Shown: positions 31,391 to 31,567 of the stretch, one piece after another | How positions within the stretch are numbered: position 1 is the stretch's first letter | Layout of the letters: each line of letters begins with the position of its first letter | Assembly (NCBI RefSeq): GCF_017309955.1 | Contig: NZ_CP021247.1 | Coordinates: 3,435,001-3,499,000, forward strand | DNA length: 64,000 nt | Direction: 5' to 3' | DNA from: Novosphingobium sp. KA1 | GTDB lineage: Bacteria > Pseudomonadota > Alphaproteobacteria > Sphingomonadales > Sphingomonadaceae | Position numbers and translations under genes: made by a program | The notes under the pieces: model-generated | Seen by the model: the letters and a program-made list of their open reading frames with translations, nothing else | Database searches by the model: none | Told to the model about the DNA's origin: nothing

Positions 31391-31567
31391 GACTCCCCAA
31401 TGAGTCTTTCGGGATTCACCGTCAAGCCGCGACTCGCCGGATTCCCTAGTGATTCACCTGTTCAGCACTATGGAACAAAACGAATCCCACACAAGATATC
31501 GAGTCATGAGGGAATCACCTGACTCAACATCTTGGGGTTCGCGACTCGGCAGCGACTCGCGCGATTC
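31391..31567. promoter_or_regulatory. Dense, phased array of 13 GANTC sites upstream of ccrM
   Basis: GANTC occurs at 31391, 31402, 31413, 31431, 31440, 31451, 31482, 31501, 31512, 31521, 31543, 31554 and 31563. The distances are 11, 11, 18, 9, 11, 31, 19, 11, 9, 22, 11 and 9, close to multiples of 10 to 10.5, so the sites lie roughly on one face of the helix. They occupy bases -31 to -207 relative to the ccrM start. In Caulobacter the ccrM promoter has two such sites, and methylation controls it. No CtrA-type box (TTAA-N7-TTAA) is evident. Confidence 0.9.

Follow-up and report, generated by a model that had tools for sequence, protein, structure and literature searches.

The GANTC array upstream of ccrM in Novosphingobium sp. 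KA1 contains a pair of NrdR-like boxes and may form a composite control switch

The array of 13 GANTC sites upstream of the ccrM gene of Novosphingobium sp. KA1 contains a pair of NrdR-like palindromic boxes, the inner edges of which are fused to GANTC; this arrangement is the new observation of the present analysis. We favor, with moderate confidence, the reading that the array is a composite control switch of ccrM, at which the dNTP sensor NrdR and GANTC methylation jointly time the gene. CcrM timing is central to the cell cycle of Alphaproteobacteria. The array is located in the window, that is, the whole stretch of 64,000 nucleotides that was analyzed (Table 1). The best NCBIfam match of the ccrM product is CcrM (E 7e-182, 603.9 bits, under the 830-bit cut-off of the model), and the product is 93% identical to its counterpart in Novosphingobium sp. 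HII-3. In several relatives, rnhB immediately precedes the array (by eye); in the window genome, the array remains beside ccrM despite an SDR-family gene that separates ccrM from rnhB.

Table 1. Positions in the window of the genes and sequence elements at the ccrM locus.
Feature	Position	Strand	Basis or remark
ccrM, GANTC adenine methyltransferase, 377 aa	30227..31360	-	NCBIfam, identity to relative
GANTC array, 13 sites	31391..31567	.	best period 10.1 bp
GANTC starts	31391, 31402, 31413, 31431, 31440, 31451, 31482, 31501, 31512, 31521, 31543, 31554, 31563		
Core-promoter GANTC, second after TTGAC	31402..31406	.	about the expected -10 position
Core-promoter GANTC, first after TTGAC	31413..31417	.	
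Likely -35 element (TTGAC) of the ccrM promoter	31421..31425	-	conserved with two GANTC behind
Promoter-proximal NrdR-like box CACAAGATATCGAG (+ strand)	31490..31503	.	2 mismatches to CACAANATNTTGTG; 16-mer 14.0 bits
GANTC (GAGTC), joined to the inner edge of the proximal box	31501..31505	.	
Central GANTC of the 20-bp gap separating the fused sites	31512..31516	.	missing in many relatives
GANTC (GACTC), joined to the inner edge of the distal box	31521..31525	.	
Promoter-distal NrdR-like box CTCAACATCTTGGG (+ strand)	31523..31536	.	16-mer 14.6 bits
SDR-family oxidoreductase gene, between ccrM and rnhB	31658..32563	-	PRK06197 subfamily, above cut-off
ORF with rnhB (ribonuclease HII)	32557..33426	-	match covers ORF residues 96-284

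The start-to-start gaps of the array are 11, 11, 18, 9, 11, 31, 19, 11, 9, 22, 11, and 9 bp, and our site list reproduced both these gaps and the count of 13 GANTC in 177 bp reported in a preliminary description of this DNA. The claimed excess over chance also held, as 20,000 dinucleotide-shuffled versions of these 177 bp contained 1.79 GANTC on average and 7 at most, and none reached 13. The next-densest 177 bp elsewhere in the window contains 3 GANTC, the motif is otherwise scarce in the window (82 observed versus 284 expected), and the array density is highest in the window genome among the genomes compared. Two more GANTC (31631–31635 and 31652–31656) are located past the array, between the array and the SDR-family gene.

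The helical phasing proposed in the preliminary description was found at a best period of 10.1 bp (R = 0.83) and was not found at 10.5 bp (R = 0.29). The R of 0.83 was matched by none of 5,000 random placements with a minimum spacing of 5 bp and by 35 of 5,000 with a minimum spacing of 8 bp; without the 2 box-fused sites, R was 0.86 at 10.1 bp, which was matched by 6 and 61 of 3,000 random placements with the 5-bp and 8-bp minimum, respectively. The phasing is thus real, modest given the minimum spacing, and closer to 10 than to 10.5 bp. Relative to relaxed DNA of 10.5 bp per turn, sites with a 10.1-bp period drift by about two thirds of a turn across the array (arithmetic); therefore, the suggestion that all sites face one side of the DNA holds locally and stays a suggestion from end to end. 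Genome-wide, 32 GANTC pairs are 11 bp apart (5 in the array) and 24 pairs are 9 bp apart (3 in the array), compared with 11 and 6 pairs in a reversed-pattern control. Because this control contains CTNAG, which we take to be an unfair null, no claim is built on the pair counts.

Comparison with relatives revealed that the array is part of a conserved ccrM control region that is kept across Sphingomonadales. The GANTC enrichment and the spacing of about 10 bp looked for in related genomes by the preliminary description were present in all 80 Sphingomonadales loci (the best 80 of 591 confirmed ccrM loci): the 300 bp upstream of ccrM contain 2–10 GANTC in each of them and 15 in the window (loci L032 and L056 had less than 300 bp of upstream sequence). 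Together with the window, these best 80 of 591 form a set of 81 loci, in which (i) 502 GANTC were counted, compared with 1.25 per kb in control DNA; (ii) pairwise GANTC distances cluster near multiples of 9.85 bp up to about 150 bp; and (iii) 120 of the 141 gaps of 5–15 bp at ccrM measure 9–11 bp, versus 3 of 10 in control DNA. These within-order counts are inflated through shared ancestry. A partial check is provided by the 54 loci in which the central GAGTC and GACTC are 19–21 bp apart: 21 of the 54 have an extra GANTC in between, which occurs only at offsets 8–12 (all five were seen) of the possible 5–15. Across the class, 142 genomes were searched, of which 105 had CcrM, 103 of them outside Sphingomonadales; 58 of these 103 loci were taken, mostly the more similar ones. 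At least one GANTC was located upstream of ccrM in 52 of the 58 loci and none in 6 (mean 3.6), 44 of 66 gaps of 5–15 bp were 9–11 bp long, and the GANTC periodicity of 10.3 bp exceeded that of all 300 jittered sets. Two genomes (L111 and L112) have a CcrM identical to that of the window and differ in their array sites, with L111 lacking the sites at -156 and -35, which indicates that the array changes quickly.

Alignment of the upstream regions revealed a conserved inverted pair, the left arm of which is fused to GAGTC and the right arm to GACTC. The arm sequence GACTCRANATNTKGTG was at first sight a private motif, as only the 2 arms match it in the genome with at most one mismatch; with 2 mismatches, its counts (13 and 14) were about those of the reversed control (12 and 8). 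Because the palindrome is also located at ccrM of other orders and at nrd promoters, the idea of a dedicated regulator was replaced by NrdR. The palindromes upstream of ccrM in other-order loci are CACAAGATATTGTG-like and resemble the NrdR box. An RNA element was also considered and rejected: positions 31200–31800 had no Rfam match at gathering thresholds, the inverted arms look like protein half-sites, and their variable positions change without partners (by eye).

With no ccrM sequence included, we constructed a box matrix from 90 boxes upstream of ribonucleotide reductase (RNR) large-subunit genes (PF02867), seeded with the NrdR consensus. The RNR genes were divided into nrdA and nrdJ by frame length, 45 of 64 loci were kept, and the 19 loci at which more than 2 of 100 shuffles did equally well were dropped; loci L218–L223 and L248–L277 are outside the matrix set. 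The pair geometry was taken from passages of PMC12051234, according to which NrdR binding tolerates 14–17 bp between 16-bp boxes, corresponding to centers 30–33 bp apart. A pair was required to have at least 16 bits in total, at least 5 bits in each box, and centers 30–34 bp apart.

The centers of the 2 boxes in the window are 33 bp apart, and the pair has 28.6 bits with the local background and 30.6 bits with a fixed background. Among the 81 Sphingomonadales loci (best 80 of 591 plus the window), the strict criterion identified a pair upstream of ccrM in 64 and none in 17; without the per-box minimum, a pair was found in 73, with the remaining 8 (L038, L041, L049, L058, L061, L062, L068, and L077) below the looser 16-bit threshold. 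In the same set (best 80 of 591 plus the window), 78 of 81 loci passed a per-locus mononucleotide shuffle test for the pair and, when the distance was left free between 24 and 44 bp, the best pair was at 32–33 bp in 71 of 81. The 511,535 control bases of these loci, most of them coding, yielded no pair in the matrix scan, nor did the rest of the window. Among further loci of the genus, some of which are probably from the same species as members of the 80, 28 of 29 carry a pair that reaches 16 bits; the exception, L123, has no pair. In the other orders, 26 of 58 loci have a single box that reaches 12 bits, versus about 0.6 expected from the control rate, an expectation that is rough because the control bases come from Sphingomonadales and are largely coding sequence; 32 of the 58 have no 12-bit box. 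A strict pair is present in 14 of the 58, a pair 30–34 bp apart beats at least 99 of 100 shuffles in 32, and the best free distance is 30–33 bp in 29. Single palindromes with at most 2 mismatches occur at 46 places in the genome, versus 74 for the reversed pattern, and only the two at ccrM are within 40 bp of each other. Lone palindromes thus show no enrichment in this genome and carry little weight as single matches; the argument depends on their pairing and on the conservation and location of the pair.

In six other-order loci (L147, L160, L172, L189, L191, and L196), the NrdR-like box shares sequence with the 3′ end of rnhB, where it encodes HKIL, HNIL, or HKML (by eye). This coding could partly explain the boxes in these six loci. 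Four of the six overlaps include an ATA codon, as in CAC AAG ATA TTG (HKIL); ATA is a rare codon, and its use hints at a constraint at the DNA level.

The genome encodes NrdR (TIGR00244, 170.7 bits versus a cut-off of 124.65). The pair upstream of ccrM thus shares with NrdR operators the 16-bp palindromic pair, the consensus, the 33-bp center spacing, and an nrdR gene in the same genome, and differs from them in its location upstream of ccrM instead of an RNR gene. Therefore, we designate the boxes NrdR-like and do not file them with the RNR operators. The RNR gene of the window genome, scanned as a positive control, has only a degenerate pair of 14.0 bits, which counts against the NrdR reading.

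The fusion to GANTC is a feature of the ccrM boxes. In the 81-locus set (best 80 of 591 plus the window), GANTC forms the inner edge at 104 of 128 ccrM box edges, and both inner edges are GANTC in 42 of the 64 loci with a pair; by contrast, the identical test on the nrd boxes found GANTC at none of 90 inner edges and at 1 of 90 outer edges. The final C of GACTC doubles as the highly conserved box C (92% in the matrix), so the methylated adenine falls inside the box. The 2 fused sites of the window overlap their boxes, as the methylation sites of methylation-sensitive operators of the MucR or Lrp type do. Outside Sphingomonadales, GANTC likewise ends 7 of the 26 best boxes (L143, L144, L153, L157, L179, L180, and L196). 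In four Sphingomonas loci (L049, L053, L074, and L075), a TGTGGATAA DnaA-like box replaces the second left GANTC between the arms (by eye).

Between the boxes and ccrM, the motif TTGAC-N3-GANTC-N6-GANTC (31402–31425) places GANTC near the -35 and -10 positions, as in GcrA-dependent sigma-70 promoters; no clear -10 element was recognized at this promoter by eye. The more general form TTGAC-N2-6-GANTC-N3-8-GANTC is present upstream of ccrM in 56 of 81 Sphingomonadales loci (best 80 of 591 plus the window) and 25 of 58 other-order loci, and is absent from both strands of the 511,535 control bases. In the window genome, TTGAC-GANTC-GANTC occurs twice, at ccrM and at C1:1339020. Judging from the sequence, a methylation-responsive ccrM promoter is plausible. 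Of the methylation sensor made of GANTC sites that the preliminary description had proposed, this part stays plausible, given the conserved TTGAC with 2 GANTC, and the GANTC-only composition does not, since 2 of the 13 sites are joined to the inner edges of NrdR-like boxes.

The second occurrence of the promoter motif is located in a stretch (L200, G000:C1 ~1338890–1339120) that is flanked by hemE and a ppsR-type gene (NCBIfam). With eleven GANTC in some 225 bp and DnaA-box-like TTATCC motifs (by eye), this stretch looks like the chromosomal origin. Another cluster (L085/L086, G000:C1 ~932800) contains five GANTC in about 90 bp, including three with 11-bp spacing. It is located several hundred base pairs upstream of a DnaA ORF, which is truncated at the end of the locus and does not reach the DnaA cut-off.

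The distance from the center of the proximal box to TTGAC was measurable in 59 of 73 Sphingomonadales loci (drawn from the best 80 of 591 plus the window), and takes the values 48.5 bp (1 locus), about 60 bp (4), about 71 bp (46), and about 81.5 bp (8). In the other orders, the same distance, obtained for 18 of 26 loci, has a period of 10.7 bp, and 9 of 20,000 random sets were as good. This phasing is independent of the GANTC-to-GANTC spacing, and the quantized distance suggests that operator and promoter must keep a helical relation. At RNR genes, NrdR boxes often overlap the polymerase site (passages of PMC9110341); at ccrM, the distance of about 71 bp makes simple occlusion of the promoter unlikely.

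The alternative that survives best is a platform of GANTC sites only, in which many methylated sites attract GcrA cooperatively, ccrM is under feedback from them, and the palindromes are irrelevant; on balance we regard it as unlikely. The genome does encode GcrA (PF07750, E 1.1e-37). According to passages of PMC3667746, GcrA is dimeric, has a preference for fully methylated GANTC, at which it occupies a longer stretch of DNA, and recruits the polymerase. Extended-GANTC scores in 13 species of 13 orders identify ccrM as a likely core GcrA target, although this regulation was apparently lost in Caulobacterales and Parvularculales (Adhikari 2021, PMC7987155). The recurrence of the 2 core-promoter GANTC and the persistence of the phasing without the box-fused sites are likewise in line with such a platform. 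However, the extended GcrA motif YGAKTCK fits 4 of the 13 array sites, and the platform leaves the conserved palindromes, their spacing of 32–33 bp, and their fusion to GANTC unexplained. Other cell-cycle regulators were also considered at ccrM. The CtrA/DnaA motifs TTATCCACA and TTAACC are both absent from the ccrM upstream region of the window; as counts with no background rate, exact TTATCCACA is located upstream of ccrM in 42 of 81 Sphingomonadales loci (best 80 of 591 plus the window) and 4 of 58 other loci, and TTAACC in 43 of 81 (same set) and 9 of 58. DnaA motifs were predicted at ccrM mainly where CtrA sites are lacking (Brilli 2010, PMC2877005).

Alternatively, a different regulator, such as a repressor with a motif similar to that of NrdR, could recognize the palindromes, since the occupancy of the boxes by NrdR is a prediction. 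The Sphingomonadales distance of 32–33 bp is 1–2 bp longer than the 31–32 bp of most nrd promoters, and the weak boxes of the genome's own RNR gene point the same way. Nevertheless, nrd promoters from this order and class are the source of the matrix, and the spacing of the pair is inside the range published for NrdR (PMC12051234, in passages), so that we consider another regulator decidedly improbable. Still less credible is a sink that would titrate away GcrA or CcrM, or slow the methylation of the locus, with no site-specific reading: the high local GANTC density would suit it, but it needs no conserved spacing, fused boxes, or quantized promoter distance, and 13 sites are few compared with the thousands genome-wide (estimated from the window density). 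Finally, the over-representation of GANTC between genes in CcrM-bearing genomes (passages of PMC3973325) could suggest sites merely tolerated by chance or relaxed avoidance in an AT-richer intergenic stretch, a reading that is practically negligible against the shuffles, the presence of sites in 80 of 80 relatives (best 80 of 591), and the excess of 9–11 bp gaps over control DNA.

The proposed composite switch has the following anatomy toward ccrM: a box pair 32–33 bp apart, the inner edges of which share GANTC, followed about 71 bp on by TTGAC and 2 GANTC, with the other GANTC filling a lattice of about 10 bp. NrdR with dATP and ATP forms a tetramer that kinks DNA and represses RNR genes (passages of PMC9110341 and PMC12051234). 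In this reading, when dATP is plentiful and there is little replication, an NrdR tetramer would sit on both boxes, the DNA would be kinked, and ccrM expression would be low. In S phase, dATP would drop and NrdR would be released from the boxes, after which the TTGAC-GANTC-GANTC promoter would fire, probably via GcrA and sigma-70. CcrM would then methylate its own control region, including the adenines within the NrdR-like boxes, and this methylation may alter the binding of NrdR, GcrA, or both, which would close the loop. A more specific claim, which we put forward tentatively as somewhat doubtful, is that the alphaproteobacterial dNTP sensor NrdR directly controls ccrM and that, in Sphingomonadales, CcrM marks the NrdR boxes, resulting in a doubly gated, helically spaced switch. 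If true, the link between NrdR and ccrM would couple the methylation of newly made DNA to precursor supply and extend the role of NrdR beyond ribonucleotide reductase. The fused GANTC/NrdR-like boxes also constitute a natural, order-wide variant series of an operator overlapping methylation sites.

The founding paper on NrdR boxes is that of Rodionov and Gelfand (2005), and a Caulobacter NA1000 strain that lacks nrdR is reported in PMC12186491. In the titles, abstract beginnings, and passages of the open-access literature that were covered, we found no paper linking NrdR to ccrM, and the word ccrM is absent from the main text of a regulon study of Proteobacteria that includes NrdR (Leyn 2016). 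Two reports on Acinetobacter may provide an independent hint that NrdR and adenine methylation meet: nrdR is named among the neighbors of methylase genes (passages of PMC10483419), and NrdR filaments reportedly come apart when an adenine methylase is present (cited in PMC12176259).

The ccrM control region resembles several known systems and differs from each of them. Like the NrdR operators of RNR genes, it has 2 palindromic boxes of the same consensus about three helical turns apart; unlike them, it is located upstream of a DNA methyltransferase gene, with the boxes about 71 bp from TTGAC and fused to GANTC. With GcrA/CcrM promoters of Caulobacter, such as those of mipZ and ctrA P1, it shares GANTC near the -35 and -10 positions and an encoded GcrA; by contrast, its 13 sites lie on a lattice, at ccrM itself, together with NrdR-like boxes. 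The Caulobacter ccrM promoter also has GANTC nearby, 2 sites that serve as an autoregulatory signal, compared with 13 here. In the Dam switches of the Lrp and OxyR type in E. coli, the methylation site is located inside the operator, whereas both the methylase and the regulator are different here and no phase variation is implied; Lrp- and OxyR-type regulators are named in passages of PMC3973325. A further parallel is provided by the GANTC sites of Caulobacter and Sinorhizobium that can be protected from CcrM by MucR or, in a synthetic promoter, by CtrA (passages of PMC5172544): there, as here, the regulator site overlaps the methylation site, so that binding and methylation can compete. By contrast with these, the predicted regulator at the array is NrdR, an allosteric dNTP sensor, and the overlap is located at the methylase's own gene, order-wide.
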